Source of the DNA: a virus
Strand: one strand, 5' to 3'
IMG/VR virus record: IMGVR_UViG_3300006790_000040
Coordinates: 1 to 40,572 of that record
DNA length: 40,572 bases
Shown: piece by piece, positions 8,897-31,671 of the stretch
How the letters are laid out: each line of letters begins with the position of its first letter
How positions within the stretch are numbered: position 1 is the first letter of the stretch
Position numbers and translations under genes: made by a program
The notes under the pieces: model-generated
Databases searched by the model: none
Seen by the model: the letters and a program-made list of their open reading frames with translations, nothing else
Told to the model about the DNA's origin: nothing

Positions 8897-10021
8897 TTAA
8901 GTTTTTTTTATAATCGGGAACATGTTCCAATATTCATTAGCCATTTTCGGCTTAACCCTCCTGTTCTCGTAGTGTTTACGCAAAACGGAAAGGGTTCCTA
9001 CATGGCCTATATTATAGGCAAGCTTCCCTAGGTCTCTGAATTTTGCGACGTAGTACGAGCAGTAGGAGTGACGCATGATGTCCTGCTTCCACTCGATACC
9101 AGCCTTTGAGATGACAGCCCTAAACCTGTCCTCGAATTTAGAGATAGGGTACAGGTCCCCGTCACGGTAGGCCTTGAGCCAAGCGACGAGGTTGTCTTCC
9201 ATTGGAGCTAGTCGACCAACTGTTTTTGAAACCTCATCAGGGATATCTATATCCCCCTCCGCCATGTCAACATGACTCCAGGTCAACCCCTTCTTCCCGC
9301 CGTCGTACCCAGCCACCTCGCTCGGCCTAGTGCCTCCCCATAGATTTATGGCAAAGTACGGAACCATCTTAGGGTCGATCTCCGCGCAAGCTTGCATGAG
9401 CTTCTTAACTTCAGGAACCCTAAGGTAGGGCACGGACGATGCCCCAATCACCGGCTTATCCACCCCAGCGCAGGTGTTTACGGATATCTCTTTTTTCTTA
9501 ACCAACCAATTTATAAAGGCGTGAACTATTTTTCGGCGGTTGGCAACCGTGTTTGCCGAGTGAGCCGGGTCTTCATATATAAAGTCTGACAGCACCATTT
9601 CACTAAGGGCCGAAACCCTGCCGCCCGGAAGCACCCTTTCTAAGTTCCTTAGAATCTGGCGGCTGTCGCGCTGGTGGGAATGCGAGGTCTTCCGATCAGA
9701 GAGCGACTTTAGGTAAGCCGTCACTGACTCCTGTATTAGCATCGTACCTGCCGCGCCCGATTTATGGCCCATGACCACGTCGTATATGTCCAGCCCCTTA
9801 TCCTTCGCAGCCTCATACGCCAGCATGAGTTTATACTGCTCCTTCTCGTCCATCTTGTTGAAATCGGATATCGCGCATACCTCGATACCCTTCCACTCCT
9901 TGGTTCGTTGAATGGCCTGTGACTCAGACTTGAAGTAGGCGGACTGTACCGACTTACCGTTAACAAACCTCCGCGCCCGCCACCGCCCCATCCTCTTAAC
10001 GTAGTCAACATAAGTGTCCAT
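8897..10021 (-). CDS. int: Tyrosine-family integrase
   Basis: 374 aa. The core-binding region lies at about 100-200 and the catalytic domain after it. Catalytic residues visible are Arg in WGGTRPSEV, the box II IMRHSYCSYYVA (His to Asp change before it, D-I-M-R, common in phage enzymes), His in IGHVG, and the nucleophile Tyr in LRKHYENR. It catalyses integration and excision at attP. I prefer ATG 10021 (MDTYVDYVKRMG) over 10048, because the extra nine codons lie over a GGAGTAT operator copy. The tRNA-derived attP lies 150 bp upstream. Confidence 0.92.
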   Translation of the reverse strand: MDTYVDYVKRMGRWRARRFVNGKSVQSAYFKSESQAIQRTKEWKGIEVCAISDFNKMDEKEQYKLMLAYEAAKDKGLDIYDVVMGHKSGAAGTMLIQESVTAYLKSLSDRKTSHSHQRDSRQILRNLERVLPGGRVSALSEMVLSDFIYEDPAHSANTVANRRKIVHAFINWLVKKKEISVNTCAGVDKPVIGASSVPYLRVPEVKKLMQACAEIDPKMVPYFAINLWGGTRPSEVAGYDGGKKGLTWSHVDMAEGDIDIPDEVSKTVGRLAPMEDNLVAWLKAYRDGDLYPISKFEDRFRAVISKAGIEWKQDIMRHSYCSYYVAKFRDLGKLAYNIGHVGTLSVLRKHYENRRVKPKMANEYWNMFPIIKKT

Positions 10022-10030
10022 GCATCGACC

Positions 10031-10108
10031 GTAATACTCCACAACCAAAATACAACCAAAACGTGTCCGAAGCTGGCCGGAGTATGACGCTATATGTCAG
10101 GAGTATGC
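10031..10108. promoter_or_regulatory. Integrase control region with three GGAGTAT sites
   Basis: GGAGTAT occurs on the plus strand at 10079-10085 and 10100-10106, 21 bp (two helical turns) apart, and on the minus strand at 10034-10040 (GGAGTATTAC). The 10-bp GTAATACTCC at 10031-10040 is identical to the right arm of the operator at 8403-8412. A common regulator of the early and integrase promoters is likely. Confidence 0.6.
10041..10061. repeat. Candidate integrase arm-type sites, left arm
   Basis: ACAACCAAAA occurs twice in direct orientation at 10041-10050 and 10052-10061 (11-bp period). The same decamer occurs inverted at 10269-10278, on the far side of the tRNA-derived core. This is the arrangement of arm-type integrase sites around an attP core. 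Confidence 0.6.
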
Positions 10109-10278: not shown

Positions 10279-10617
10279 CTAAGGCGTGAGAAGCTTCTCA
10301 AGGATACAGGTTACGCGCTCATTCTCGTTACCCAAATCGTCCTCAGATATGAAACGCCGAGACCCCATGTCTGTCAATCTCGCTAGTAGTAGATGGATAC
10401 ACTCGTGCATGGCTACGGTGTCGATCATCTCATCCTTCCAGTCGTTATTATCAGCCACGTTAACCATGGCTACGCAGCCCTCGGGGTCAGCATCTATTTC
10501 AGCGTATCGGTCACTGAACTTCTTTTTGCTGAAGTTAACGGTGTACTCACCAAGATTGAATCGGGCTTGGTGCTTCTTGAACTGGCGCTTGAATCTCTCG
10601 AACTGGCGCTTAGTCAT
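10279..10617 (-). CDS. HExxH metallopeptidase-like protein
   Basis: 112 aa. TVAMHECIHLLLARL contains the zincin HExxH motif (HECIH) about residue 70, with an upstream beta strand (GCVAMVNVAD) and a downstream acidic region (SEDDLGNENERVT) that could supply the third ligand. Short proteins of this kind occur in phages and prophages, sometimes next to SprT-like proteins; substrates are unknown. It lies at the attP side of the cargo block and ends within the right-arm repeat. Confidence 0.6.
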   Translation of the reverse strand: MTKRQFERFKRQFKKHQARFNLGEYTVNFSKKKFSDRYAEIDADPEGCVAMVNVADNNDWKDEMIDTVAMHECIHLLLARLTDMGSRRFISEDDLGNENERVTCILEKLLTP

Positions 10618-11588: not shown

Positions 11589-11807
11589 TTAGCGGGGGCG
11601 CTCTAACTCGTACTCGATTTGGTTTATATACAGCATTAGGTCTGTAATAAATGCCTTAGACTCAGGAGAAGCATCACGGGCATCAATCGACCCCTGTGGA
11701 TGTCTCTCCAGAATCTCCGCTACCCCGTTGTACTTTGGGGTTATCGCGCAACTCGCGCTTAACCCTGATAGCGCTAATAAAGTCATTAACAGTGCGATTC
11801 TTTTCAT
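11589..11807 (-). CDS. Small lipoprotein, candidate outer-membrane spanin
   Basis: 72 aa from ATG 11807. MKRIALLMTLLALSGLSASC is a lipoprotein signal peptide with its lipid-attachment Cys at residue 20 (a Ser at -3 makes it non-ideal). The mature part is short (ITPKYNGVAEILERHP, then a helical C-terminus). It overlaps the preceding gene by 125 bp in another frame, as Rz1 genes do with Rz. The longer frame from 11891 lacks a signal peptide. Likely outer-membrane spanin subunit; the mature part is not proline-rich, so the call is moderate. Confidence 0.6.
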   Translation of the reverse strand: MKRIALLMTLLALSGLSASCAITPKYNGVAEILERHPQGSIDARDASPESKAFITDLMLYINQIEYELERPR

Positions 11808-11934
11808 CAAGGCGTTCCTTGGCGATTTGCTCAGCCTTTTTATTATTAAGCTCCCGCACACCCTCCGCGATACTCTCAGCTGCTTTTGCAAGCGCCGGGA
11901 GTGCGCGGAGGGCGGCTAGGAACTCTGCAACCAT
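11683..11934 (-). CDS. Coiled-coil lysis-cassette protein, possible spanin partner
   Basis: 83 aa. The N-terminus (MVAEFLAALRALPALAKAAE) is amphipathic and a charged coiled coil follows (NNKKAEQIAKERLDEKNR). It sits between the holin candidate and the lipoprotein, joined by a TAATG overlap to the holin. Position and overlapping lipoprotein gene suggest an inner-membrane spanin, but the hydrophobic segment is weak for a transmembrane anchor. Confidence 0.45.
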   Translation of the reverse strand: MVAEFLAALRALPALAKAAESIAEGVRELNNKKAEQIAKERLDEKNRTVNDFISAIRVKRELRDNPKVQRGSGDSGETSTGVD

Positions 11935-12194
11935 TAAGCCTTCTTTTTAGCCGCCTTCTTGGCGGGTTTAGCTGCTTCGGTCAGCGAAGGCTCTTCAGTT
12001 ACTCCACCCGACGCATAGGCCGCCAAGGCATCTACAATACCTTGACCTCCGACGTAAGCGCATGTGATCCCTACCACTGCCGAGATAACCTTCTCAGCAA
12101 TTTCAGGTGAGACGCCAATCCATTCAGTGGCGACAACAGTTAACAGGCCGCCGATGGCGACCCATAATTTACGAGACTTAAGTTTTTCTCTCAT
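11934..12194 (-). CDS. Holin candidate
   Basis: 86 aa with two likely transmembrane helices: LWVAIGGLLTVVATEWIGV, then KVISAVVGITCAYVGG followed by IVDALAAYA, and a lysine-rich C-terminus (AAKPAKKAAKKKA). This is the topology of small phage holins, which form the inner-membrane lesions that time lysis. It is one of two small membrane genes here; the other is 6 bp upstream. Confidence 0.7.
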   Translation of the reverse strand: MREKLKSRKLWVAIGGLLTVVATEWIGVSPEIAEKVISAVVGITCAYVGGQGIVDALAAYASGGVTEEPSLTEAAKPAKKAAKKKA

Positions 12195-12415: not shown

Positions 12416-15400
12416 TTAATAGCCGCTCATTGAGCGCCTCATCATCGAGCGCCGTATGTCTTCCATGGACCTAGGCCCACTAGAACGCCCAGAACCACCC
12501 ATTTTACGTAGTATTTGCTCCCTAATGCTAGACGAGCTGGACCGGCGAGAGCTTCCTCCCTCTGAGGAGGGCTCCGCTTTACCCTCCCACGGGGTCACTC
12601 CAACCCGCTTTCCGTATTCATTATAAAGATCCAGTGCTCTGACTATGTCAGACCTGTACTCACTTGGGATGGCCTGGATCAGGCTATCGAACTCAGCCTT
12701 GGTGGGGAGCGCGTTGAAGACCTTGCGGGCTGGGTGGTTATACCTGAACGCCTCCTTGATCTTGTCCTCGATCTCTTCCTCGCTCTTACCAGCTTCTCTT
12801 AAAACAGCTTCAGCAGCCGAGCGCGACTGCTCGAACATAGCGCTGTCATTAGACAGTGCTGCGATAGCCATATTCTTAAAGTGAGGCTTACTAGCATTCG
12901 GAACCCCGCGTATGCCTATCGGCTTGCGTATGTCGAGCCCCTGCCCGCGCCCTGCAACTCGCACCCAGTTCTCGATGTTTAACCTGTTGGTTACTCTGGC
13001 CTCTTGGTTGTCCAGATCACCGAGGGTGTTCACGACCTGATATGCCTCTAAGTACCCTGATCCACCGGCAGTCTGTATTGCTGGGCGGACAAAGTTCTGA
13101 TAGTCGACCGGCATACCTGAGCGAACCCAGTAGGCTAGTGTTTCCCCTGTGCCCATGATCATGGAGATAAGGAACACTCGGTTCTCGATCCTGAAGTCCC
13201 GTCCTGTCGCTGGGTTAATCGCGCTATTAATCGCGTCCCCAGCCATGCCGAAGGTGCCAACCCGATTAAGCCGGTCCATTAGTGCCACACTGAACTGGCC
13301 AGCATTAAACCCATCTTCGTCCCAAGCGTCCTTAAGCTGCAGCACGTTGGCCTTCTTGCGGAGGGCTTTCTCTTCCCAGCGCTCCCTCATCCAGACAAAG
13401 GCTAGGCTCATTGGAATGATAGCCGTGTAAGGCATCAAGCTCTGAAGCAGCAGTCGGTAGGAGAACTCACCGCTCTTATCAAATGCCCGGAAGTCACTAA
13501 CAACGTCTGCGGTCTTAGCAACCGACCAGCCCATAAGCGGGTTAGTTAGGCGGCCAGCCTCTGAGGTGTACACAAACGTGGGCCGCGATTTAATCGAGGT
13601 CTCCTTAGTGATCTCAGCTTGAGCCATAACACTCAGGTTACGTAGCTGCTGGTCAGTGAACGGGTGCTGCCTGTCCCTGTTCCGGCGGAACCCTTGAGCA
13701 AGAGTCTCTAGAGACATGCCGTACTCAGCGAGTTTATTGACCATGTACTCAAACGCCTCCTTAGGGTAGCCCACAGACTTGTGGTCCAGTCGGTACCCCT
13801 TCTCGACATTGTTAGCGGGGTTTGAGTCTAGGTGATCTGCGGCCTTAATCACTAGCTCATTGTAAGCCTTCCATGTGTTAATGACGTTGGCTGCGTGCAT
13901 CCACTGACCCACCTGAGTAAAGATTGCCTGTGGCTTCAGCGTGGCGTACTTCACATCCGAGCCCATGCTGCCTGCGCCCATGATGCCAGTTCCCAGCATC
14001 TCGCGCACTACACGCGAGCTCTTAACAACGAACCTCTTGGTTCCTCGGCGCAACCTATTGAAAGCCCCAGAGGTCACAGGGTTACCGGATAAGTCGTACT
14101 CCTCGGTACCAATAATCTCACGGTGCATGGCAGAGTGAATGCGGTCCATGCCTCCCACCATCGTGTCCATATCCCCAAGGTTGGTGCGGGTGTATTCCTT
14201 CTGCCATCCGCCATCCAGATCCATCTGCCTGCCGAAGGCTTGGAACAGGGAGCCAAACGCCTGCTTGAACATGTTCAATCCCTTGAGAGACTGGCCGGAG
14301 CCTATTCTATTTACACCGTACTTGGAGAACGGCATCACGAACATGGAGCTTGTGTCGACCAGTGCCGTCTTGAATGACTGGACCACAACACCTGTAAGGG
14401 CTTGTAGCACCTCGTAGGCCGAACCCATCTCAGCCGGGGTAGAGGCAGCCTCATTGCGAACCATCATCTTAACAGCTTTGCCGAGATCGTTTGCTAGGCC
14501 CATATTGGTTCGGGCACCAAGTATGATCCTATATCCACCCTTACCGTATTCCTTCTCAGCAGCAGCGCGTTGCTGCTTGGGGGTTAGCTCCTGAATGCTT
14601 TCTAGGAAGTTGACCTGCTTCTGGAAGTCGTTCTCCGCAGCTTTCAGATCCCTCTCTAGGCCCTCAAGGTTTTGCCCGAAAGATGCTTGTAGCGCGAATG
14701 TTCTCACTATCGAGAGCACCTGTTGCTCCTCGAAGGTCATGTAATCAACCCACTCGGACGGGAAGCCCTCTGCAGCACGCGCATCGAGCATAACTCTATT
14801 CATGCCGTCGCCCGTCTCCCGGATCTGTTTCGGGTCGGCTGTGTAATCTAAGTTAGTGTACAGCGTGTTAAAGATCGACTGCAGCGTGTGGGCAACCTCA
14901 CCAACGTAAGTGGCTCTCTTGGCAGCGTCATTTACATCACCACCAGTTGCGGCGTACAGGTTATCAGCAAACGCGAGCATGTCGCCGTCAGCGGCTGCCT
15001 CGTAGGCCTCTTGAACATCCGAGCGGGCGGCCATCATCTGGAACTCACTGCCCTCGGTGCCAACATACTGAGCCTCGGAGAACACAGACTCACCCTGCTT
15101 GAGCGCCAACGGCCCCAAGAACTGAGTCCAGACATTGCCCTTATTCTGGCGGATAAGTTGAGCCCGAACCTCGTCATCCCTGCCATCGAGAAGGGCTTCA
15201 GTAATGCTGTCCCGAACCTCTACAGGGGAGTTGTTGCCCATTGCCTGAGATCCGTCTTTCCTAGTACGCATACGACGCCACCCATTACCCGCCTTGCCCA
15301 TCTCTGCGGCCACACTTGCAATAGGTGCGGATATCTGACGGCTAACAGTAAACAGCTCAGCGCCCACTGCCTTGCGGAAGTAAGGAGCAGCGCCCCTATC

Positions 15401-18400
15401 GTCCAGAACCAGTAGGCCCATCTCCTGCTTCTGCTCGAGGAGAGCGCTACTCATTTCGCCTGTCTTATTAAGCAGGTTCTCAATCGCCGCCCAAGCTTCA
15501 TCGTCTGATCGGATTGCGAGACCAACCTCAGTGTCAGTGCTCAGCATCTTCCTGATATCTTGGAAGGCCTTACGCTTCGCTTCCTCAACGCTCTCACTCC
15601 CATCCAGCAGTTGCTGGTTGTTCTCGAAGTATGCAAGCGCAGGGTTGTAGACATTCTTACGGAACAGCTCCTTAGCCCCTTCCCTACCCTTGTACACCGC
15701 AGTGATGGCGTCACGCTCAGCGAGCGCCCACTGATGTGAGATAGGCTCAAGCATGGTGTGCCTCTTAGACAGGCCAGCGAACTTGGAGATCATGGTGCCT
15801 ATGCCCTTTAGGACAGGTGACCCGGTCTTCTCGATTTTGTCTTGGAAGGTTCCAATGACCTTAAGCACAGCACTCCGGCGTGCGGCCTCGTACTCCCCAA
15901 TGTTGAGCTCATTGCTCAGTCCTTCGTAAGTTCTCTTAACGAAGTTGTACGTCTTGTCCTTAACTCTGCCAGGGGCGTTGAGCCACAGATACATCCGCTC
16001 AAGGTCAGCCGCCATCTCACCCCTAGCCTTAGTGGCGTCCTCTGGGATGTATGTAAACATCTTGGGGGTTTCCTTAGAGAGCATCTCTGAGGTTTGTTCC
16101 GGGCTGGTAGGCACCAAGTACTCGGCTCCCTCGGACGCGACCCACAGCGACTTCTGGGTCACCGTGGACTTAGGCCCTTGCTCCACGCCCAGCTTAGACT
16201 CAAGGTCAGCCATCGCGGCCAAAAGGACAGGTCTGGTGCTGTTGTCGAAGTCAACAAACTCTCTGGATATCTTGAGTCCGCGCATCTTCTTGCGGTGCTC
16301 CCGCTTATGCTTGTTAAGCTTAGTGAGCACGCGCTCCACATGCTTGGCGTAGCGCTTGTTAAACTTAAGCATACCGCGAGCTCTCTGACCGGCATCCTTG
16401 TCAGGGTCCATCGCCACCTTAATGATCTCGTTCGCCTTACCTCGGTCAGCGTCCTTACGCAACGCAGCCAGCCCGAAGAAGTGGCTGTTTCGTCGAGCGA
16501 ACGCTGCCATCAGTGCTAGTGCGGCGTGTTGCTGGGTTGCGTCTCCAGGTGCGATCATCTCTAGCGCTCTGGCGATATCATACCGATCCTCCTGCGAGGC
16601 TCCGGGCTCAGACCTGCGGTTCTCGATCAGCAGCTTAACAGTGTCAGCTAGGCCCTGAGCGTTTAAGTCTACGCCGGACTTAGCGATCTCCTCCATGAGG
16701 GTTAGGAGCATAACTTGAGAAGCCTCCTCCTCACCTTTAGCGGGCTTAGTTAGCCTGCGGGCGACAGCGTCTACGGACTTGCCGTAGTTATTCATGTTGG
16801 GGAACGCCCGGAGCATGGCCCCAATCAACCCAGCCTCAGGCCCTTTAGACTTTTGCAGATCAAGGACGTTAATAAAGTTCCTCAGCTCTTTCTCCGCCGC
16901 CTTAGCCAAGACCTTGGCGTCATCGTAGTTCTCGATGAGCTCTGTGAGCTCCTTGTTGCTCGTGTTTACGCTCTCCTGCTGCTTGTCTATTGAGTGCTCA
17001 GCCTTGATCCGGTTTCTCTGGATGTTGGTGTAAGCACGCAGCAGCAAAGAGTACGCGTCACGCATCGCCCGATCCTTGGAGGTCAGGTCATCAATGGAAA
17101 CATTTACTGTCTGCTCACCAATATCCACCAGTCGCTGGTTGATGAGCTTAAGCATCTCGTCGGGAGACTTAGCGAGCCTGCCCATTTGCCGGACAAATGC
17201 CCCGTACTCCAGTTCTCGCTGGTTAAGCTTATCCGACTTGAACTTGTCGAACATGCTCTTCATCACAGAATCAACGTGGCCCCATGACGCAAAGTTCTGT
17301 TTAAGTGCTGACTGCCGATCCAAGTCCGTGTCCGCACTAACCGTTGGGTCAGTGGATATGCTGGTAGTCTTGTACTTCGTTGGGTTGCCAAGCCTGACTC
17401 GACCAAGGTCATCATCAAACTCCAACGGCCTAGACATTGTTTTTTGGTCTAGTATAGGAACCCTCGAGGCCTCTTTGCCGTTTGCAGCCCTTCCGTACAG
17501 GAACAAGGTATCGTATACCGCTTCCTCAAACGCAGTGCCCTCCAAAGTAAACTCACCAAACCTATCTTCGTACCCAAAGGTCCTCCGCATTGTTTTGAGT
17601 ATTCCCTTAAATAGGTCAACTATCTGAAGCTTAACGGACTCATAGAAAGTCTCCCCTTGGGAAAGCCCTTCCATTTGGGAGAGGATTTTGAATAAATCAT
17701 CCTCCGCTGATGAGACCTCAGCGACGAACTCATCAAGGTTTTTCAGGCCGTAAACATCCCTCCACGCCCCAGACTCCCCTGCATTCTTGTCGACCTCCTT
17801 ACGAGCCCTCATTAAGAGCCGCTCCAGTCGCTTAAGAGATCTTGTAGCTTCCTCAGACAGGAGCGCACTGTCCCCACGTTCGTAGTTCTCTATAGTGCGA
17901 CCCAGTATGGAGTGCGAGAACTCATGAACAATAGTTCTAGCTAATGCGCGGTCATCTTCAATCTGCCTTAAGTTGACCGTAACTGAGTTAGATCCCACAC
18001 CTCCGTCACCGTCTGATTCGTCTACCTGCCACCCGGCGAACTTCTCATCCTTATTTACCTCAATCCCGAACCTAGTATTTTCAGTCACGAAGCTAGAGCT
18101 CTTTAGCAGCTCAATTATGTCAGAATAATAATCGTTGCTTAGCAGCGAATTAGCCCAGTCCAAAGCATGGGTCGCCGTAAGGAATTGATCCTCACCCCGC
18201 ATAGCGTCCCTGTAGTAAGCGATGGACTCAGCGTCGGTATCGAACTTGTCCGCGAGAGATGTTGTAATTGAGCGACCACCGCTTTCAGCGTCTAAGGCTT
18301 TAACTGATGGGGACTTACCAGTGATCTGGCGCTCACCAAACGCAACCAGGCTTGCAGCAATCTGCTCAGGTTCTTTGTGCTCTTGCCCGGTAATCCGCCG

Positions 18401-21400
18401 GTAAATCCGCTTAATGAACTCCACAAACTTCTGCCAAGCACTGGCAGATTGTTCGTTCTGCTGAGCGATGCGCCGGATTTCCTCTAGAGCACGAACGCGC
18501 TCCTCCTCCACACCCTGGTCCTCGTTGTACAGCTTGTTTACCGTTGTGCTGATATCGTTTCTCTGTGTCTCCGTCAGGGAGTTCCAGAGCTCTTCGAAAG
18601 CTTCTCGGGTTTCATCTCTCCAGGCTGCGTGGCCTATTTCGTGGTCTACCTTGAACTCAACATCCTGCGCCTCAATAACGTCTAGGTTGAGCTCAACCCA
18701 GCTTTCAGATCCGTTACTGGCAAGCCGCGATTCCCATGCGCCAGTGCCTGTGCGGGAGTCAAGCAAGGATGGTATTTCCTCAAGCGAGGAATCATCTGTC
18801 GGTTGGAACTTGCCCAATAGTTCATTTCGCTCCCTTGCTGAGAATTGAGTCCTATCAAAGTTTCTTCTCAGGAAGCGGTCACTTTCAACGCTACCCTTAA
18901 GGCTGAATAATTCAGCCATATTCTCATGGAATGCATAGTGTATTCTGTAAACATCCCCCATGGATAAAGGCTTGCCAGACTCTGAATCCACAACGTCCAT
19001 GTTGACAAAGGACAGCCCGGAGGCCTCGGCGTGTACTACTGAATGTTCAACAACTTGTCTTGAAGACTTTGTACTGACTGTCGTGGGATTGTATAAGATT
19101 ACCGCATCAGCATTTTCTAACACATCTTTAGGAAGACTAAGCTCAACGTCAGGAGATAAAGATACATTCAGGCCGGTGTGAATTATTATCGAAGGCACAG
19201 AATTTTCCTGAAATCTATCAAATTCCTCTTTTGTTGTGAGGGCGTCTAAGCGCATGGTTCCACGACCATATACGAACTCTCCGTATGCTTTTGAGCTTAA
19301 TTTAGGTAGGCTCAACTCAGCCTTCGGTCTTTCACCTGTCTTCTTAAGCTCTTCAGCCGCCGCGTTGTCGCCTGTCTCATTGGCGTAGTAGGTGGCAGAG
19401 CCATCCATGTAGTGCCTAAACCCTTCAGAAAGATCCCCACCCATAACCTTGCCAGCTGGTATGTCATAGAATCTCTTTATGCTACGCCCTGTGAAATACG
19501 CGCCAATTTTCTCCAGCTGGGTTAGGTCTCTTTGCGGGCCTTCAATTTGTTTGACCGGGTTATTATTCTGAAATGTAACTTCATCAACTTTTTCTAGATT
19601 CGGCATCGAAAGGCTTCCACCTCTCGAGGTTATTTCCGAAGCTTCCTTAGTGTCTTTGAAGACGACTTGTGTAGAAATCTTTTCCTCCCCCTTAATATCA
19701 TAGAGTGCAGGATGTATTTTGTTTGTATCGCTCTCACCATAAGCTAAGGGGGGCTCAATTTTAATTATGCTCGCTCTCTCGATCCCCTCAACAACAATGT
19801 CGTTTGCAGTATTGGCATTGAAACTATTAACGAATGAAGGGGCCTTAATATTAATGGTACCGCCCCCATAGCCCAGCTCGCCTGCAGACGCCATCCCCCC
19901 ATGAACATTCACTCGATCAACAGTCTCCCCAGCCCAGGTTAGATCAACTGGATCTGCTGAGGTTAAATCAATGTTTATATCAGCGCCCCTAGCACCTTCC
20001 TTGCTGGCAAGGTTCCGGTTGTGCTCATTGTTTAATGAGCTCAAGCCTTGGCTATCTAAGTTATAGAGAATGGCCCATACAAAATCTGAGTATCCCTCCT
20101 CGGCTGTCGCCACATCTCGTACAAGGGAGTCTCGGGTATGGTGGATAGGCCCCAGTTCAGATTTGCGTACATTCAATACCACACCGTCATCCGCGTCTTC
20201 CATATTTCGACGCACATCTAATGAAGTGACAGCCTTGTCGTTCCTGGCGGTAACACTCATAATGTCAATTACGTCTGATCCACTGAGTCGGCGTAATGCC
20301 TCAATCTGAACTTCATCTAGCGTCACAGCCCTACGAGCATCAACTTCAAGCTCTGCATCAGTAGCAGACCTAGTCATATCAACTCCATCTGTAGATCTTA
20401 ATTTTAGCGGAACACGCGAATCACGACCTGTCTTAATTGTGGAGTCTCTAATAACAACGTCATCTCCAAAGGCTTCTATCTCCTGGAGATTGAACCCCTC
20501 AAAACTCACGCCCTGAAAACGGAAATCCACATTGGTTGATATTCGATTCAGCTTTGGTGCGATAAAACCAGCATTCTCAATATCAAACGAATCTGCCTCC
20601 ACTTCCTCCAGTAAGGGGGCGTTGATCTTAAGATCAGCGAATGAGAGCCCAGACCCGATGCCGTCGATTCTTACCGATCCTTTAATTGATTTTAGCCTAC
20701 TTAAATCAATGGTGATATCCTCGTCGGTCTCTGCATCAATATTTCCCAAACCTTTAGGGCCTTTAAAATAAATGATGAGATCGCCTCCCTCACCAATCTC
20801 CTCTAGAAAGCTGAGGTCAATAACGGGATTGCTGTCGGTAATCGACCCACTGACAAGCAAGGGCTTGCTTAGTTTGGCAGGCTTTGTATCGCCTTCCCTT
20901 GCGGGAAGGTTGTCTTTTAGGAAAGACTCGACCTCTTCCGAGAAGAAGGATTCCCCACCATCTCTCATTCTCCTCCTTATCCCGCTAAAATCCTTGGTCC
21001 TGGTTTCAATTTCCCCAGAATCAAGGTTGTACATCAATCCACCAGACATGTATTCGTATAAGATATCGTCAGCCTCGCCAGTTTGCGAAAGCTTGATTAC
21101 GGCCTTCTCGAACTTCCTGTCGCTTATAAAGTCTTCAGCACCTGGGATCTTTTCACTCAAGAGCCTAGCCTCTGCGATCCCCATGTAGCTTTGAGGAAGG
21201 GACTGATTTGAGTTGCGCCCCCTCGGCGGCTCACCAATCTTCCCTTGCTCAAGTCTGATCGCCACTTCCGCCTGACCGTTTTCAAAGTAAATATGGAAAT
21301 CACCTCCGGCCAAGTAATTACTAGCCGTGCTGTTGGCCCTTATGCACCATGGGGTACCGGCACACGCCTTACTCAGCTCATCGGCAGACTCTCTGCCGCT

Positions 21401-24400
21401 GTAAACCACCCAGCCTTGCTTGCCCTCCCTGATGTTGTCCGCCTTCTGCTTGGCGGTCATGTCATTGATGCCCTGAACAAAGGCGTCCTTAGCTTTTTTG
21501 CCCTCCCTAAGGTGGTTCCTAATAAAGAGCAACCCGTCCATGTTTATGTCCATCACCGGCACTCTGTTTGAGTCCGTGATTCTGGTAGTCCTTCCAGTGC
21601 CTGGGTTTACGTTAAACCTAGTGGCCATAAGGATTATCATGGCTGCCTCAGTGGGTGAGAACTCAGCATCACTGGGGTCCGGCGACCCTTCTGCGATAAG
21701 TGTTGGGAGGTCGACCTTGTCGCCCAATTTATAAGCCAGTGCTTTTAATGAACTACTGCGGTCTTTGTTTATTTGGTTGGCCTCATGGGAGAGCGCGATA
21801 GCCAGTCGTTCTCTGCCTTCCTCATCACGGGAAATTTTATACAGCTTTCGGCCCAAGTCAGAGGCCCTCAAGGCATCAATAGGGTTGGACATGTCGACCT
21901 TTTCCCCAGTCACCTCATCAACAAAAAAGTTCTCTACTGTTAGCTTTGGCCCATTTACATTGGGTAGCAGATACGGGAGCCTGCCCATATCTTTCTTTCG
22001 GTACCTTTCCGTAGGTTCTAAACTGAAATACTTATCATCAATAAGCGTATCTGGTCTCCTTACCAGTTCATTGAAATAACTTGGAAGCGGCCCACCACTC
22101 GATTCGACATCCAGCACCCTATCCACTACCTCGCCCTCAGACAGGAACCCTTTCTGCGCTGCTAAAATAAATTCCTGCGCTATCAGGTTGACTTCCCTCT
22201 TCTCCTTAACCGTTCCGGGGAGAAGCGTAGCCCCAGGCCTATCCAGTTCGTCTGAAATCTCACTGTACTCGTCGGGGTCGTCGTCGTTCTTAAGGAACTC
22301 AAAAGAACTTTGTGGATCAGGGCTACGCATCCCGTCCAGCGCTCTGGCGAATTGAACCAAAGTGTTGTCCGGGTCTTTGAGGTTCTCGATGTCCTTGAGC
22401 GAGTAAGAGAAGTCGCCAATCTTGAAGACGGGGCCATCTCCGCCCCGCACTAATTGAACCTTGTTGTTATCAGAAAGCTCTGGGCGCTTGGCAAATAAAT
22501 CATCCAGTGCTGCACGTATGGCAGCCTCTCTCTCGCTGCGAGGTTTAAGGGCCTCTTCATCCGCAAGCTCAGCCTGCCGCTCAGCCTCCTCTACAGCTGT
22601 CTTAGCTTGCTCGTCAGCCTTGGCGTTGTGGTCAACCGCGTAGGTGGAGTGAGGCACCACCGCTCTGTTAACCTCAACAAGAGAGTTTGTGTATTCCGTG
22701 GAGCTCCCGCCTTCGCTAGGCTCTAGCTCCGCCTTACCGAAATGGTTGGCTACTTGGACTGCACCCGCCGCTGCATCTCCTTGAGACGAGCCATCTTCTC
22801 CGCTAACGCCACCACTTTGTCCAGTTCCCCCCGCTCCTGCAGCGTCTGCAGTGTCTTGTTGATCTGCTCCGGGGACGGCTTCTTCGATTCCTTCTCTGAC
22901 TTCATAAATTTGTTTCTTTAATTTTGCGGCAATGACCGCGACGTTTCCATCTTTAAGTTCTTGGCGCTCTTCGGCGCTGGTGCTGGACTCGGCTAGTTGG
23001 CTTGGGGAGTATATGGCGTTGATTAGATCGCCATCCGACATGGACCCAGTTTGGTCTACCAGCAGGTTTTCTACAGTTTCAGCAACCCAAAGGGCCATAT
23101 TAAACCCTAAATCCGGTGTGTCATCATCGACGACCACATTATCAATAATGCTTACGATCTCTGCCTGCACACTCTTGATGGACTCAGCCAAGCTCTCACT
23201 GCTAGGCAGCTCTTCAGTGGACGCACTAACTATTGTGTCTGTGTCTTCCGCGAACTCACGCTCCTGAACTCCTGTTTCGCTGCGTAAGCCTGATCGAGAA
23301 ACCGCAGTCTGGCTGCCTTCAGCCATGCTAACATACTGAGCACCTTCATCTGCCACGATCTCATTAGTGACACCTGCTTGTGTGGTCGCTGTGAATGGGG
23401 CTATGTCAATCGCTTCAGCCTGCCTGTTCCGTGTGCGGATGAGGGTGTCACGAAGGGTGTTGTACTCAGACTTAGTGAGGTTGTACCTGAGAGTGCTCTC
23501 CCTTAGCTCCTTTGAGGCTCTTACCGGAACGGCGAGCTTCATCGACCCAATCACGGAATAGTTTTCCATGATCTCACTCAGGTCTTTCTGGTAGGCTTGG
23601 CGGCGTGCCACGCTCTCCTTGCTTGGCGCGAACACTTTAAACCTGGTAGCCCCCTTCTTAGCCTTGGACGTACTAGCCGTCGATATTGGGACAATAACAA
23701 TCTTGTGGTCGTTCTCGTCGGCGCGGCTTTTGTGCTCAAGAACCACCATCCGGTAGGACACGGATTTATTGTGATGCTTAGAAACCCTGGCTTTGTTGGT
23801 GAGGATTGTTCCCAGTTCCTCGAAATTGTCTTTAGGCGCTTTGGTGATAGCCTCGTTAAGCCTATCAGTCGCCACCTTACCCGTCTCACTAACATCGTAG
23901 AAGGCAGGGTAGACAAGGTCACTCTCATTACCTTCCATACTCCTGTCCTCAAACACGGCGGGCATCTGCTGCCAGTCCAGCATCATGACAGGCACACCAC
24001 TGACGGTGTCTATTTCCCCAGCACTAAGCCTTCGGAGCTCTTCCAGTTGCAGCCCAAGCTTATTGGTCTGCATTATGTATGCATTCTTTAGAGTTGAGGC
24101 AACCTCTCTTGCTCTTGGATTAGAGTCTGGGTTCTCTTCTAAGATCTCGTTCAGCCTTGCATTCACTTGCTGCATTTGGTCGACATCAGAAGGGACAGTT
24201 AAAGTCTCAACCACATCCTTACCGTCAACCGAGTACGTGATAGCGTACTCTCTAGCGCCAAGCGCTAACTCCATGCGGCGGTTGTATTCTTCTGAATCAG
24301 GGTCCAACCCCTCGAGCTGCGCCAGCTCTTTTGAGTTATCGAAGCCTTTCTCTACCTTAGCATTGCGATCCTCGATCTCCTTCTCCAGCTCTGTGATGCG

Positions 24401-26380
24401 AGCATCAATCATGCCCTTCACCTGCTCGCGCCTCTGCTCAGGCTTCATCGGAGCCACGGCGTTCTTGTAGTTCTCTTCAACAGGAGGCTTCTCAACCTCA
24501 GCCCCAGGCCTGAAGATCTCCTTAGGGTCAACTGATTCAAGGACATCCTTTGCTTCCGCAACCTCGGCGTCCCCGCCCTCTTCCCTGACAGGCTCAAAGT
24601 CCGCTGCCTTGACTGGGTCAACCAGAGCTCCACCTTCCCCGTCCTCAGAGGATTCCAAGCTATCCATCGGCAGGTCTAACTGGTTTAACAGCTCGACCAC
24701 TGCGCCAGACTGGTCCAGCTCTTCCACCAACTCGTCCTGAGTTATGGGATCTGCCTGCACCTCAACCTTCTCGGTAGCCAGCTTACGCCCTAGGAAGTGC
24801 TCACGCGCAGCCTTGCGGCTCTCGGTGTAATAAGCCACCACTGCTGGGTCGAAGGTTTCGGACGTGGTAAGAGTGATCTGATTGATCCGACCGGCTATGT
24901 CTGCGTTAGGCTCATCGAACGCGACAACCACGCCGTCGTCATCAGTTATGATCGTGTCGGACAGCTCTTCCTTAACAAGGTTCTCGATGTCATCCTTCTG
25001 CTCTTGTGTGAGCTTTCCGGTAAGGGTGTTAGCAACAGTCTCCTTGTCGACCTTGTCGAGCGTCTCTTTGACAGCATCCTCTTGAACCCGGTTAACCTCC
25101 TGAGTGCGGTCAGCATTAACCTTATCCATGATAGCCCCGAAGGTGCTACCGCCACCACCAGCCAGGATGCCAGCCGCTAAGCCAACTTCCATAGAGTGCT
25201 TGATGTTCTTCTTCTCCTCGTAGGTTAGGTCACCCCAGCCAGAGCTATCAATAGCTTCACCAAGGTCCATGCCTCTAGCAGACTTACCAGCCACAATGCC
25301 TACCCAAGTCTGGAAGGCCTCAGTGCCTGCCTCAACAGGGGCACCTGCCGCAATGCCTGATGCTATCTTACCCGGAACACTGTTAGTGATCTTGCTGTAG
25401 ATCCCACTCTTACTTTCTATAGGAATATCAACCCCCCGCACAGACTTCAGCACTTTGTTAAGCACCACTGTCGGGAGGATTGAGTCAGGCAGGGCGGAAA
25501 CCATACCACCCAGCAGTGCGTGGTTGAATGCGGTGTCGTTGTCGATGTCGGGATCAGAGTCAAGTTCACCGTAAATCTCACCTGCGTTTAACCCTAGAGA
25601 ATGGGCACCGCTCACCAATGCGCCTGCGCCTACTTGGTAGTATCTCTTTCGCGCCTCAGACAAGACTTCTTCACGCAGTATCTGTTTGCCTGAGGCATCA
25701 ACACCGAAGTTAATCTTCCCGAACGCCTGCGTCATAGCGCCGTCTGAGCCGTCACCAAGAGCGTCAGCAAGGCGCTTTTTCACCATGGCCTCAGTGGCCT
25801 TATCGCCCATCTCTTTCTTAACCTGCTCCCTGTACGCTCTCTCAAGGGTCTCTTTTATCGCCTTTCTGGTGGCAAAACCTTTTAAGCCGCCAGCAATCGC
25901 AAGAGGAACATCAGTTGGGTCAAGACCGGGTGCAATCTGAGTGCCTGCGATTGCGCCAATACCGGCCATTCCAATACTTTCAGCCACGGAAGGGGCAGCT
26001 TCACCTAAGGTGCTTGCCCACCTGTGGCTGTGTGATGTGCGTAGCTCAGGGGCAGAGGCCTTTTTTTGCCTTTCAAGGGCGTCCCTCTCAAAGTCCTCCG
26101 ATAAGCCCTCAAATCCTGCCTTGTCGGAGATCATTTTGCCCGCATAATTCCATGTAGCAAGAGCCCCCTGCCAGCTCCGGGCTGCCCCACGCTTAATCTC
26201 CTCCGTGCGGCTTAGTGGTATATACGAGTCTTGAGACTTCAGGAACTCGTCATAGTCGGCAGGGTAGTTGGTGCGTAACCAATCCTCACCTTTTTCATAC
26301 GCGTACCGTAACAGCACATCCCTGTCGGAAGACTTGTCTCCAGGTCTCTGGAGACGGTAGTAATCTACTAATTCAGCCAT
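12416..26380 (-). CDS. Giant multidomain virion/ejection protein (4654 aa)
   Basis: A single open frame of 4654 codons with no internal stop. Residues 1-450 hold alanine/glycine-rich hydrophobic segments (e.g. AESIGMAGIGAIAG, LAAGILAGGGGSTFG), expected if the protein is ejected and inserts in the host envelope. An acidic and charged region follows, and a Gly/Gln/Ser linker at about 1180. Around 1675-1700 is a distinct module with GTPWCIRANSTASNYL, then GDFHIYF. Residues about 1840-2260 look like a leucine-rich solenoid. Two HExxH zinc-peptidase sites follow: VDHEIGHAAW (His2580) and IVHEFSHSI (His2819, followed by LDEFVAEV). The rest is mostly helical, with a hydrophobic patch near 4320 and a Ser-rich end. 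Proteins of this size occur in Bcep22-like and N4-like podoviruses as virion components entering the cell. Peptidase targets and domain roles are inference. It follows two probable internal virion genes. Confidence 0.85.
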   Translation of the reverse strand: MAELVDYYRLQRPGDKSSDRDVLLRYAYEKGEDWLRTNYPADYDEFLKSQDSYIPLSRTEEIKRGAARSWQGALATWNYAGKMISDKAGFEGLSEDFERDALERQKKASAPELRTSHSHRWASTLGEAAPSVAESIGMAGIGAIAGTQIAPGLDPTDVPLAIAGGLKGFATRKAIKETLERAYREQVKKEMGDKATEAMVKKRLADALGDGSDGAMTQAFGKINFGVDASGKQILREEVLSEARKRYYQVGAGALVSGAHSLGLNAGEIYGELDSDPDIDNDTAFNHALLGGMVSALPDSILPTVVLNKVLKSVRGVDIPIESKSGIYSKITNSVPGKIASGIAAGAPVEAGTEAFQTWVGIVAGKSARGMDLGEAIDSSGWGDLTYEEKKNIKHSMEVGLAAGILAGGGGSTFGAIMDKVNADRTQEVNRVQEDAVKETLDKVDKETVANTLTGKLTQEQKDDIENLVKEELSDTIITDDDGVVVAFDEPNADIAGRINQITLTTSETFDPAVVAYYTESRKAAREHFLGRKLATEKVEVQADPITQDELVEELDQSGAVVELLNQLDLPMDSLESSEDGEGGALVDPVKAADFEPVREEGGDAEVAEAKDVLESVDPKEIFRPGAEVEKPPVEENYKNAVAPMKPEQRREQVKGMIDARITELEKEIEDRNAKVEKGFDNSKELAQLEGLDPDSEEYNRRMELALGAREYAITYSVDGKDVVETLTVPSDVDQMQQVNARLNEILEENPDSNPRAREVASTLKNAYIMQTNKLGLQLEELRRLSAGEIDTVSGVPVMMLDWQQMPAVFEDRSMEGNESDLVYPAFYDVSETGKVATDRLNEAITKAPKDNFEELGTILTNKARVSKHHNKSVSYRMVVLEHKSRADENDHKIVIVPISTASTSKAKKGATRFKVFAPSKESVARRQAYQKDLSEIMENYSVIGSMKLAVPVRASKELRESTLRYNLTKSEYNTLRDTLIRTRNRQAEAIDIAPFTATTQAGVTNEIVADEGAQYVSMAEGSQTAVSRSGLRSETGVQEREFAEDTDTIVSASTEELPSSESLAESIKSVQAEIVSIIDNVVVDDDTPDLGFNMALWVAETVENLLVDQTGSMSDGDLINAIYSPSQLAESSTSAEERQELKDGNVAVIAAKLKKQIYEVREGIEEAVPGADQQDTADAAGAGGTGQSGGVSGEDGSSQGDAAAGAVQVANHFGKAELEPSEGGSSTEYTNSLVEVNRAVVPHSTYAVDHNAKADEQAKTAVEEAERQAELADEEALKPRSEREAAIRAALDDLFAKRPELSDNNKVQLVRGGDGPVFKIGDFSYSLKDIENLKDPDNTLVQFARALDGMRSPDPQSSFEFLKNDDDPDEYSEISDELDRPGATLLPGTVKEKREVNLIAQEFILAAQKGFLSEGEVVDRVLDVESSGGPLPSYFNELVRRPDTLIDDKYFSLEPTERYRKKDMGRLPYLLPNVNGPKLTVENFFVDEVTGEKVDMSNPIDALRASDLGRKLYKISRDEEGRERLAIALSHEANQINKDRSSSLKALAYKLGDKVDLPTLIAEGSPDPSDAEFSPTEAAMIILMATRFNVNPGTGRTTRITDSNRVPVMDINMDGLLFIRNHLREGKKAKDAFVQGINDMTAKQKADNIREGKQGWVVYSGRESADELSKACAGTPWCIRANSTASNYLAGGDFHIYFENGQAEVAIRLEQGKIGEPPRGRNSNQSLPQSYMGIAEARLLSEKIPGAEDFISDRKFEKAVIKLSQTGEADDILYEYMSGGLMYNLDSGEIETRTKDFSGIRRRMRDGGESFFSEEVESFLKDNLPAREGDTKPAKLSKPLLVSGSITDSNPVIDLSFLEEIGEGGDLIIYFKGPKGLGNIDAETDEDITIDLSRLKSIKGSVRIDGIGSGLSFADLKINAPLLEEVEADSFDIENAGFIAPKLNRISTNVDFRFQGVSFEGFNLQEIEAFGDDVVIRDSTIKTGRDSRVPLKLRSTDGVDMTRSATDAELEVDARRAVTLDEVQIEALRRLSGSDVIDIMSVTARNDKAVTSLDVRRNMEDADDGVVLNVRKSELGPIHHTRDSLVRDVATAEEGYSDFVWAILYNLDSQGLSSLNNEHNRNLASKEGARGADINIDLTSADPVDLTWAGETVDRVNVHGGMASAGELGYGGGTINIKAPSFVNSFNANTANDIVVEGIERASIIKIEPPLAYGESDTNKIHPALYDIKGEEKISTQVVFKDTKEASEITSRGGSLSMPNLEKVDEVTFQNNNPVKQIEGPQRDLTQLEKIGAYFTGRSIKRFYDIPAGKVMGGDLSEGFRHYMDGSATYYANETGDNAAAEELKKTGERPKAELSLPKLSSKAYGEFVYGRGTMRLDALTTKEEFDRFQENSVPSIIIHTGLNVSLSPDVELSLPKDVLENADAVILYNPTTVSTKSSRQVVEHSVVHAEASGLSFVNMDVVDSESGKPLSMGDVYRIHYAFHENMAELFSLKGSVESDRFLRRNFDRTQFSARERNELLGKFQPTDDSSLEEIPSLLDSRTGTGAWESRLASNGSESWVELNLDVIEAQDVEFKVDHEIGHAAWRDETREAFEELWNSLTETQRNDISTTVNKLYNEDQGVEEERVRALEEIRRIAQQNEQSASAWQKFVEFIKRIYRRITGQEHKEPEQIAASLVAFGERQITGKSPSVKALDAESGGRSITTSLADKFDTDAESIAYYRDAMRGEDQFLTATHALDWANSLLSNDYYSDIIELLKSSSFVTENTRFGIEVNKDEKFAGWQVDESDGDGGVGSNSVTVNLRQIEDDRALARTIVHEFSHSILGRTIENYERGDSALLSEEATRSLKRLERLLMRARKEVDKNAGESGAWRDVYGLKNLDEFVAEVSSAEDDLFKILSQMEGLSQGETFYESVKLQIVDLFKGILKTMRRTFGYEDRFGEFTLEGTAFEEAVYDTLFLYGRAANGKEASRVPILDQKTMSRPLEFDDDLGRVRLGNPTKYKTTSISTDPTVSADTDLDRQSALKQNFASWGHVDSVMKSMFDKFKSDKLNQRELEYGAFVRQMGRLAKSPDEMLKLINQRLVDIGEQTVNVSIDDLTSKDRAMRDAYSLLLRAYTNIQRNRIKAEHSIDKQQESVNTSNKELTELIENYDDAKVLAKAAEKELRNFINVLDLQKSKGPEAGLIGAMLRAFPNMNNYGKSVDAVARRLTKPAKGEEEASQVMLLTLMEEIAKSGVDLNAQGLADTVKLLIENRRSEPGASQEDRYDIARALEMIAPGDATQQHAALALMAAFARRNSHFFGLAALRKDADRGKANEIIKVAMDPDKDAGQRARGMLKFNKRYAKHVERVLTKLNKHKREHRKKMRGLKISREFVDFDNSTRPVLLAAMADLESKLGVEQGPKSTVTQKSLWVASEGAEYLVPTSPEQTSEMLSKETPKMFTYIPEDATKARGEMAADLERMYLWLNAPGRVKDKTYNFVKRTYEGLSNELNIGEYEAARRSAVLKVIGTFQDKIEKTGSPVLKGIGTMISKFAGLSKRHTMLEPISHQWALAERDAITAVYKGREGAKELFRKNVYNPALAYFENNQQLLDGSESVEEAKRKAFQDIRKMLSTDTEVGLAIRSDDEAWAAIENLLNKTGEMSSALLEQKQEMGLLVLDDRGAAPYFRKAVGAELFTVSRQISAPIASVAAEMGKAGNGWRRMRTRKDGSQAMGNNSPVEVRDSITEALLDGRDDEVRAQLIRQNKGNVWTQFLGPLALKQGESVFSEAQYVGTEGSEFQMMAARSDVQEAYEAAADGDMLAFADNLYAATGGDVNDAAKRATYVGEVAHTLQSIFNTLYTNLDYTADPKQIRETGDGMNRVMLDARAAEGFPSEWVDYMTFEEQQVLSIVRTFALQASFGQNLEGLERDLKAAENDFQKQVNFLESIQELTPKQQRAAAEKEYGKGGYRIILGARTNMGLANDLGKAVKMMVRNEAASTPAEMGSAYEVLQALTGVVVQSFKTALVDTSSMFVMPFSKYGVNRIGSGQSLKGLNMFKQAFGSLFQAFGRQMDLDGGWQKEYTRTNLGDMDTMVGGMDRIHSAMHREIIGTEEYDLSGNPVTSGAFNRLRRGTKRFVVKSSRVVREMLGTGIMGAGSMGSDVKYATLKPQAIFTQVGQWMHAANVINTWKAYNELVIKAADHLDSNPANNVEKGYRLDHKSVGYPKEAFEYMVNKLAEYGMSLETLAQGFRRNRDRQHPFTDQQLRNLSVMAQAEITKETSIKSRPTFVYTSEAGRLTNPLMGWSVAKTADVVSDFRAFDKSGEFSYRLLLQSLMPYTAIIPMSLAFVWMRERWEEKALRKKANVLQLKDAWDEDGFNAGQFSVALMDRLNRVGTFGMAGDAINSAINPATGRDFRIENRVFLISMIMGTGETLAYWVRSGMPVDYQNFVRPAIQTAGGSGYLEAYQVVNTLGDLDNQEARVTNRLNIENWVRVAGRGQGLDIRKPIGIRGVPNASKPHFKNMAIAALSNDSAMFEQSRSAAEAVLREAGKSEEEIEDKIKEAFRYNHPARKVFNALPTKAEFDSLIQAIPSEYRSDIVRALDLYNEYGKRVGVTPWEGKAEPSSEGGSSRRSSSSSIREQILRKMGGSGRSSGPRSMEDIRRSMMRRSMSGY

Positions 26381-26386
26381 TATGTT

Positions 26387-29300
26387 TTAAGGTTGTGGTA
26401 TGGGGATAGAGGGTCCAGCTGGGCCGCGTTCGATCTGAATCAACCGCCTCTCCATTTCCTCTAATGAGATAAGACCATTCCGCCAGTCACTTCGTACTTG
26501 AGCCTTGGCGGCTTCCTCCATGGAAGTTTGTGGCACAGGCGCAGGGCTCTGGTTAGGGAGTACTGGGCCTGGGTACATCCTGCTAATCCTGTAATCAATG
26601 TCCGCCTCTGATGGATGGGGGTACTTTATCGGAGACTGAATAAACTGAGGAATGTTGTACCCCTGAGAGGTTGTGTCCAGAGGCTCGTAATAGCGCTGGT
26701 CCACTGGCGGCGGCACTGACGGCGCATTTGCGTAAGGGTGCGGCTTAGCAGGTGCAGGCTGCTTAGGAACAATCTGACCATCTATCATTGTAAAGTCAGA
26801 TGGGGACATGGGAACGGGCGCTGAGCCAACTGGAGGAGGCGCTGGAGGCGCTGGAGGCGGGGGCAAAAAGTTGTCCTCTTCATACTGAGCACGCTCACCC
26901 ACCACGTTGTAAGGTGCGGGGGCAGGCAGGGACCTTGTGTACCCAGCGTCTCTGATCGAAGGCGCAACACCGGACGCAGAAGGCCCTTCTGGCTCCATAT
27001 ATACGGTTGGCTTTGGAACGGATGGTGCCTCGGGAAAGAACGGCTCCTTGTTCATTCTCTTGACCAGCCCAACACGAGAGAACTGCTCTATAGGTGAGCG
27101 CTGATGGGACCCAAAATGCTGTAGGTCGGACCAATCATCACTGAAAGGCAGCCCTTCCGTTCTGTACTTTTCCTCCCACGTCTTAGGCTGGCTTGCTATG
27201 TAGTCCTTATTGAACGAAGAGTTTGCTGCGTCAGCCCTGGCAAGGTCCTGCCTCAAGTCACCCATAGGAAAGCCAAGTTTCTTAGCGAGATCTACAGCCT
27301 TGTCACCACGAGCCATCAGTAAAGCTCTGTCTGTTTCGTTTAAGGACTTGTCCCTTTCATTGAAAAAAGTTTTTGTAGCTGCAACAGCGTTGTTAAGCTG
27401 ATTCCTCATCTCATCCGGACCTGCGCCAAAGTATGCACCAGCGTCAGTGTCTGTTCCGTCAGAGTTCCTGCTCGCCACTATGTTAAGCGCATTGTACGGG
27501 GAACGGGGATTTATTAGGTTGAACATCCCCGCAAAGCCTGTGCTCTGGTTCTTCAGGTCATCATCAGTGAGGCGTTCTCGAAAAAACTCAGCATGTTTCT
27601 TACCCCCAGACTCAGCCCACTCCTTTCGCATTTGAGTATACTCTGGACCAGCCTTATACCTGTAAGGGTGGTTTAGTGGGATGTTTGTTGGATTCTCATC
27701 CATCGTGTTGGGGTTATCGAAAGTGCCTTGCAGCTTATCAGGTATGCTTGAAACCCCTCCTTCCGGTGGAACAGGCATCCCTTCCATGCCTTGATCTAAT
27801 GGAGCGTTAGGGTCAGCCCAACCCTCTTCAGTCGGAACAGGAAGGCTACCGCCAGCAGTGCCTGGTGAGGCCGAAGCACCTGAGGCACTTGGCAAAGCAG
27901 TCTGCCCAGCCTGTGGGACACTACTGCCAGCACTTGGCAATGCAGACTGGGCAGGCTGGGCAGCCTGAGGCAAACTTCTACCGCCCATGTAATAGAACGA
28001 GTTTTTGTTTTTCGAATCGAACAGTGAGGTCTGTCCAAGGTAATCTCTTTTGTCTCTATCAATAAACCCAATCTCCCTCGTGAGTTTTTCTATGTTCCCA
28101 TAAAGAGCTGATATCTTCGGGCCTTGCGTAAAATCTTGCAGGGCTGTAGCCAAGCCTGCGGGGTTAACATTCCCATCCCTGTCTACGGCATCGTTGCTAA
28201 GATTCTTAAGCCTTTCAGTCCTAGCAGTTTCAATGATCTTGCCAACACTCTCGTCAAGGCCCTGTTTAGTGAAAATAGTGTTACCAGTGCCGCTCATGGC
28301 TTGCACTATCCCCGCTATCTTAGCCTCATCCCCGCTCCTTACATCTGCTATAATTCCATCACGCAAATTCTCAGGCGCAAGCATAGCGATTTGCATTGCC
28401 ACTTTCGGGTTGCTGACAATCCCGGCTATAGAGTATTGCCGGAGGTTGTTGTCGCCCGCCAGCATACGCTCCATTTGGATATTCTGCTGAATTAACTCAC
28501 TGGCTTTCTCCCTTATCGCACTATCAAACCGATCAACCTCCATCCTTGTAGTGGCCCCATACACGCCGATCTCAAGGCCATCTAGATTAACAATATTATT
28601 CAGCTGATCTTCAGGGATCTCTTCGATAGCCCCCATCTTCCTTAGCTTAGCGTACTGGGACTTAACATCAGCATGTCTCTGGGCTAGGTTTTTTGTGGAC
28701 GCAAGTTCAATCTCAGTAAGCGCCTTTTGCTTAGCCAATGCCTGCACCTTTTCGGCTGTAGTGAGCCCTTCCTCTGGGTCCGGTACCTCAGCCTTGTACC
28801 TCCTCGTAATTTGGTCATCGAACTTCTGCTGCTCACGGATGTCTACCGCATTCGCGTATTCCGTGGCCAGCCTGATAACGTAAGCACCAACCCCCTCACC
28901 TTCCTCCTGCTCTGGAGGTAGCTGTCGTATCTTCTGATACTCAATGAGAAGGTTATCCCTTCTGCGCTCCTGTTCCTCCGTGTCCTCATTAAGATCGGTT
29001 GCCTTCTTGATCTCCCGCGAGAGGTCTACTGTCGCTTTCTTTAGGTTCTCAATCTTCTCTGGGTCAGCCTCTATGTGCTTTTCATCTACCCCAGCCAGAA
29101 CGGCAGCACTTACCATAGCGTTATAGGAGCGCTCAAGTGCCAGCTTATTGACTCGGGCCTCAGCTTCTTTTTCATCTAGCTTGCGTAGTTCGCGGGCCTC
29201 CGCCGCGTCCTCCTTAGCCTCCTCACGCCTCTTCTGGATCTGGTCCTCAGAGTACTCCCGCTGCTCTTTCAGACGGTCAAAGTACCGCTCGTCCGCCCGA

Positions 29301-31227: not shown

Positions 31228-31671
31228 TTACTTTTTCCCTCCATCCGTTGCGTCATCTTCCTGGCAGTTTTGCCATTGCATTTGGCGCAGTTCCGGTATG
31301 TGTTTTTCCACTGCCTCACGACCGCCCAAAATGAATGCAATCGTACAGGCCACTTCCGTATAAATGTCATAAGCCTTTATCTTGGGGGCTCCCTGCCCGT
31401 TACTAAACTTCCACGAAGAAACCGCGTTCATTATTACAGGCACAAGTGAGTCTTTGTACCGCTGGAAGAACGGGTTAAGTGGCGCGTCTAGAAGTAAGAA
31501 CTGAAACGCCCGCTCGGCTGTTTCAGGGTCAACTGACTCGTCATCAATTATATGGTCCCAAGTAAGGACAGAGTCACACAGTCCGTTGTAGAACTTGAAT
31601 GCGTCCTCATCCCCCTTGCAGATCTCTTCCATCTTTCTCCAGATGGCCAGCTGTGTTTCAGTGTGAGTCAT
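31228..31671 (-). CDS. Hypothetical helical protein in virion operon
   Basis: 147 aa, all helical in appearance, with DHIIDDESVDPETAERAFQF, then LLLDAPLNPFFQRYKDSL, and a charged acidic end. I do not recognise a function but similar helical proteins accompany the internal virion genes of podoviruses. It is 1 bp from the stop of the neighbouring gene's start side, fully in the operon. Confidence 0.55.
   Translation of the reverse strand: MTHTETQLAIWRKMEEICKGDEDAFKFYNGLCDSVLTWDHIIDDESVDPETAERAFQFLLLDAPLNPFFQRYKDSLVPVIMNAVSSWKFSNGQGAPKIKAYDIYTEVACTIAFILGGREAVEKHIPELRQMQWQNCQEDDATDGGKK

Follow-up and report, generated by a model that had tools for sequence, protein, structure and literature searches.

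A giant modular phage protein, putatively ejected, with a layout like that of the N4 virion RNA polymerase

What might a phage do with a single protein of 4654 residues that carries two zinc-peptidase motifs? The question arises from a viral stretch of 40,572 nucleotides (IMG/VR record IMGVR_UViG_3300006790_000040, here called the window), in which an open reading frame on the minus strand runs from an ATG at 26380 to a stop at 12416 with no interruption. The initial annotation, made from the sequence alone, had pointed to this frame and to its HEIGH (His2580; 18629-18643) and HEFSH (His2819; 17912-17926) motifs, and the positions of the ORF and of the motifs confirm it. With uniform codons, the probability of a stop-free run this long is about 10^-97, and 0.05 HExxH motifs are expected in an ORF of the same length and composition. 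A giant frame is found at the same place in independent contigs from several metagenomes. Since homologous giant frames occur in these other contigs, chance is ruled out and an assembly error is unlikely. The hydrophobic N-terminal segments and C-terminal patch reported earlier are present but weak, with Kyte-Doolittle means of 1.5-1.6 for residues 288-307 and 4310-4329 against a cut-off of 1.4; the C-terminal segment lies at a similar position in most relatives examined.

Direct searches place the protein in no described family. Neither whole nor in halves does it give a significant match in Pfam, PHROGs, NCBIfam or the PDB sequences, names such as MLKL_N being weak matches under the cut-off; there is no tblastn match among 50,697 phage records (INPHARED), and a whole-protein search of IMG/VR returns nothing. 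Relatives were reached through the tail protein encoded at 33177-35216, which, used as the query in IMG/VR, matches four contigs, two of them with a syntenic giant ORF. Extension by alignments of the conserved parts yields 13 IMG/VR relatives with a homologous giant ORF (2,746-4,956 residues where complete; one is partial). In L029 (543-11134) the giant frame is split into frames of 677 and 2859 residues that overlap by a few bases, possibly through a frameshift, a sequencing error or gene fission. Two scans of GTDB genomes revealed no prophage or relative. The window also encodes an integrase-like protein (8897-10048, minus strand; phrog_1, 2.6e-20), given which the phage may be temperate, though no prophage was found.

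The gene order is that of an internal-virion-type block. On the minus strand, the tail protein (a virion structural protein; phrog_3287, 8e-27) is followed by a 572-residue protein with a hydrophobic N-terminus in the gp14 position (29509-31227), which has homologues in L002, L003 and L004, then by a coiled-coil-like protein of 1039 residues in the gp15 position (26387-29506), and immediately afterwards by the giant ORF, which starts 6 bases past the stop of the 1039-residue gene. Virion and tail genes lie upstream of the giant ORF on the same strand. This order has counterparts in the relatives, where the place of the 1039-residue gene is occupied by a large ORF of 537-1191 residues. The earlier reading is supported in that the protein is multi-domain and stands last in such a block. 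Directly after the giant ORF, small minus-strand ORFs (11589-12194) read as a lysis-like cassette with a membrane protein and an overlapping Rz/Rz1-like pair; the two that were tested have no family match above the cut-off. The slot before the 572-residue gene is occupied in the window (31228-31671) by a 147-residue protein unrelated to what fills it in relatives (L005/L018), namely, in G004, a GNAT acetyltransferase (PF00583, 6.6e-10) and, in G006, a protein similar to it. The window gene as an acetyltransferase was considered and rejected, the GNAT match holding for G004.

Comparison of the window protein with its relatives allows module borders to be drawn and separates an N-terminal module, a WC-motif domain, two zincin-like domains (Z1 and Z2) and a C-terminal module, all encoded on the minus strand. 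The N-terminal module (residues 1-430; 25091-26380), rich in Gly/Ala in its weak hydrophobic helices and carrying GTEAFQ at residue 352, is about 28-38% identical between members and is followed by a looser stretch up to about residue 1000. The C-terminal module (residues 3011-4610; 12551-17350), predicted to be all-helical, shows 22-42% identity between members by BLAST and precedes a basic tail with a net charge of +6 in the last 60 residues. Against the viral library BFVD, its structural model (pLDDT 65) strongly matches a single unnamed protein (E 5e-30) and next an uncultured phage protein (E 9e-4); the non-significant BFVD matches include polyvalent-named proteins and a protein of phage LKA1 annotated as putative internal virion protein, and in the PDB no significant fold match is found. 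The N- and C-terminal modules as a pair match no Pfam or PHROG family.

Between these modules lies a region that changes from one relative to another. Relatives conserve the N- and/or C-terminal modules, with middles that are non-homologous, and the variable cargo of the window protein (residues ~1001-2760; 18101-23380) is mostly without counterpart except in G008, its closest relative. The cargo domain at residues 1467-1791 (21008-21982), with a GTPWCI motif at residue 1675, is common to the two proteins (34% identity); the counterpart of this GTxWCI-motif domain lies at L063:8596-9714, and in the window a repetitive hydrophobic/polar stretch follows it. Z1 precedes the WC domain in G008 and follows it in the window. 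G+C content is 52-56% in the C-terminal module but drops to ~46% at residues 1801-2550, which fits a separate origin for some of the cargo. Modular anatomy and cargo turnover are established here by comparison of sequences.

The two HExxH motifs belong to domains of different standing. Z2 (residues 2744-2984; 17429-18151) contains His2819 and His2823 and a candidate third ligand, Glu2884, in YGLKNLDEF. Its class, type B, in which HExxH is followed by YGLxxLxEFxxE, is also present in G003, G005, G008, G009 and G014, whereas the fixed zincin of the other relatives belongs to a distinct class, type A; both classes occur in G009. The zincins of L013, L018 and L019 had been equated with Z2 in alignments, a view abandoned after profile tests, which assign them to type A filling the same place. 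In all 14 proteins a zincin of type A or type B is found at a distance of 1713-2150 residues from the C-terminus; the domain is therefore part of the fixed chassis. Z1 (residues 2505-2690; 18311-18868), with His2580, His2584 and a candidate Glu third ligand among residues 2625-2627 of the EEER that starts at 2625, has a clear homologue in G008 only, at 42-43% identity and at another position in the chain. Its similarity to Z2 is unconvincing (hhalign E 0.0065, probability 6%), and it weakly resembles type A (E 0.003). Because it is dissimilar to Z2, is shared with G008 only and stands there in a different order, Z1 is considered cargo. Two HExxH domains in one protein had been called unusual. 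They are indeed uncommon. According to PMC5512222, zincin domains occur, one to five at a time, in about 36% of polyvalent proteins, and about 8% of those carry two or more; the combination is therefore not new, and profiles and distribution indicate that Z1 and Z2 are not equivalent. Elsewhere in the window, a separate protein of 112 residues (10279-10617, minus strand) carries HECIH, a third zincin-like motif, and has no Pfam match.

The fixed domain does not always keep its motif. The first His is replaced by Glu (EExxH) in G010, G012 and G015 and the second (HExxE) in G011; the altered motifs lie at residues 1733 (L036), 1338 (L038), 1739 (L028) and 985 (L037) of the giant ORFs, and the central Glu is kept. 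These four relatives had been counted as zincin-less for want of HExxH, until a search with profiles recovered the domain in its altered form. The altered domains are possibly pseudopeptidases or have a changed metal site, and it is probable that not every member has a canonical protease as its fixed domain. Natural change of the motif in these relatives speaks for an architecture to which canonical proteolysis is dispensable. Selection acts on the giant ORFs of L018 and L019, which are under purifying selection, with dN/dS values of 0.17 for the N-terminal module, 0.02 for the zincin, 0.08 for the C-terminal module and 0.45 for the linker, the fixed zincin being the most constrained part of this pair. 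Between L011 and L015 the zincin is less constrained (0.47 versus 0.27), a value that includes misaligned residues at the L015 contig edge.

Z2 is predicted from its sequence to adopt a zincin fold. The Z2 domains of G008 and G003 weakly match Peptidase_M78 (ImmA/IrrE), at 7e-4 and 0.017, under the curated cut-off; unlike that family, Z2 is embedded in a giant chain. An AlphaFold model of the zincin region (mean pLDDT 54) places each HExxH on a helix, with the candidate Glu on a helix that follows, and resolves no strand core; a Foldseek search with this model gives no match to the PDB or to a solved zincin and is uninformative at such low confidence. Profile comparison relates Z2 to the virion RNA polymerase (vRNAP, gp50) of phage N4 of the Schitoviridae, an ejected protein of 3,500 residues which, according to the sections of the structure paper cited here (PMC12633501), comprises a likely membrane-spanning NTD, the polymerase, an HExxH-bearing C1 domain for which these sections give no tested function, and a helical C2 described there as without structural homologue. 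The type-B profile aligns with N4 C1 (hhalign score 77.7, E 2.7e-10), the HExxH, which in N4 is HELVH with His2228, and the Glu of the EF motif being aligned; a smaller type-B profile scores 50.4, while the highest score among 40 column shuffles is 14.9 and the reversed profile scores 14.5. Profile comparison hence establishes that the fixed zincin is related to N4 C1. For the N-terminal module the relationship with the N4 NTD is suggestive only, with a score of 43 (E 3e-4), compared with 17.5 for the reversed profile and 21.6 for the best shuffle, and, in another set of members, a borderline E of 1.5e-3; reversed-profile controls give E 0.27-0.49. The C-terminal module has no sequence match to N4 C2, and among the PDB matches listed for its model full-length N4 vRNAP is absent, mini-vRNAP alone appearing with E 1.4.

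The window protein is thus like N4 vRNAP in being a giant single chain with a hydrophobic N-terminal module, a central cargo, an HExxH domain and a large helical C-terminal module, in being encoded last after smaller ejection proteins, and in its homologous zincin. It differs in that no RNA polymerase is detected, the C-terminal module is not recognisably related to C2, the N-terminal similarity is borderline, and the cargo varies between relatives. It is, as judged from these comparisons, laid out like N4 vRNAP, with which it shares the zincin, and is not classed as a vRNAP.

Two other systems invite comparison. The polyvalent proteins of Iyer et al. 2017 (PMC5512222) are likewise very long and multidomain, are encoded near late virion genes, contain zincins and shuffle their cargo modules between relatives. 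One relative, G009 (L064), has Kinase-PolyVal in its cargo (5.4e-21) together with a weak ART-PolyVal match, at residues 1458-1543 and 1682-1727. The difference is that Pfam recognises no named polyvalent domain in the window protein; LPD38 (PF18857) has no match in G000, G003 and G004, and control genomes gave none either. The gp16 of T7, with hydrophobic segments and a basic C-terminus (PMC8954989), likewise closes a series of internal virion genes, of which it is the largest, and is mostly helical. The window protein is about 3.5 times longer, with no transglycosylase domain found and no sequence similarity. Homology to gp16 was not found by hhalign (E 0.31 for the C-terminal and 0.51 for the N-terminal module), and a test for homology to T7 gp13-gp16 was likewise negative.

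The best explanation, to which we give a probability of roughly three in four, is that of a modular, polyvalent-type ejection protein of a podovirus-like phage, with the layout of N4 vRNAP but without its polymerase, consisting of a chassis and a swappable cargo. The chassis would be formed by the N-terminal hydrophobic module, the zincin and the helical module of ~1,600 residues with its basic tail. It would package the giant protein in the head alongside the smaller internal proteins of 572 and 1039 residues, and would carry it with them through tail and envelope. The swappable middle, which here includes the WC-motif domain and the zincin-like Z1, would then act in the new host. In terms of the N4 layout (NTD, polymerase, C1 zincin, C2), other cargo would replace the polymerase. 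We infer packaging, ejection and membrane insertion, as well as all enzymatic roles. The earlier proposal of an ejected multi-enzyme protein gains from the multi-domain structure, the N4-type zincin and the fixed terminal modules; it has to be amended for the domain of His2580, which is shuffled cargo and not the equivalent of the other. For the fixed zincin, an architectural or packaging role, whether or not the domain is also a peptidase, appears at least as likely as proteolysis; autoprocessing that frees the cargo is doubtful, and cleavage of a host protein more doubtful still.

Among alternative explanations, a self-processing polyprotein survives best, as a possible if rather unlikely one. 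One or both zincins would cleave the chain, either inside the head or once it has entered the cell, to give pieces that act separately. Self-processing has been proposed for polyvalent proteins in general, DdrB of phage P1 being cleaved before packaging (PMC5512222), and the fixed zincin is situated between the cargo and the C-terminal module, a place at which cleavage would release the former. Against it stand the EExxH or HExxE motifs in the fixed domain of 4 of the 14 proteins and the behaviour of N4 vRNAP, which has the homologous domain: it is packaged unprocessed, its zincin-containing region being required for encapsidation (PMC5512222), and the cited sections of the structure paper report that the enzyme, once purified, showed no degradation (PMC12633501).

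An injected protease effector, the zincins of which would cut host proteins during entry, is less likely again. In its favour, an effector would be expected to be swappable cargo, as Z1 is, and in the L018/L019 pair the fixed zincin is under the strongest constraint (dN/dS 0.02); against it, the motif is altered in four relatives, and the fixed domain is part of the chassis rather than of the cargo. It is very improbable that the ORF encodes a non-virion late intracellular protein or is an assembly artefact joining genes, as the uninterrupted giant frame recurs in independent contigs from several metagenomes and is under purifying selection. Least probable of all, despite the same layout, the homologous zincin and the borderline N-terminal similarity, is a true N4 vRNAP homologue hiding a very divergent polymerase in its middle, given that the cargo regions of five members do not match an N4-like polymerase-domain profile (E 0.33-0.77) and that the window protein has no polymerase family match.

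The question on which this family bears is why N4 vRNAP possesses an HExxH domain and so very large a C-terminal part. A homologous fixed zincin in proteins without a polymerase suggests that the domain belongs to the delivery machinery and not to transcription, and the natural EExxH and HExxE variants make the need for peptidase chemistry directly testable. The swappable cargo marks a place in uncultured phages where new injected effectors can be sought. Tentatively, giant ejection proteins may form a broader class of which N4 vRNAP is one special instance, a class in which a chassis with a built-in zincin-derived domain carries varied cargo, not a polymerase in the present family, and in which, in some members, the altered metal site (EExxH, HExxE) would serve packaging, regulation or other chemistry rather than proteolysis.
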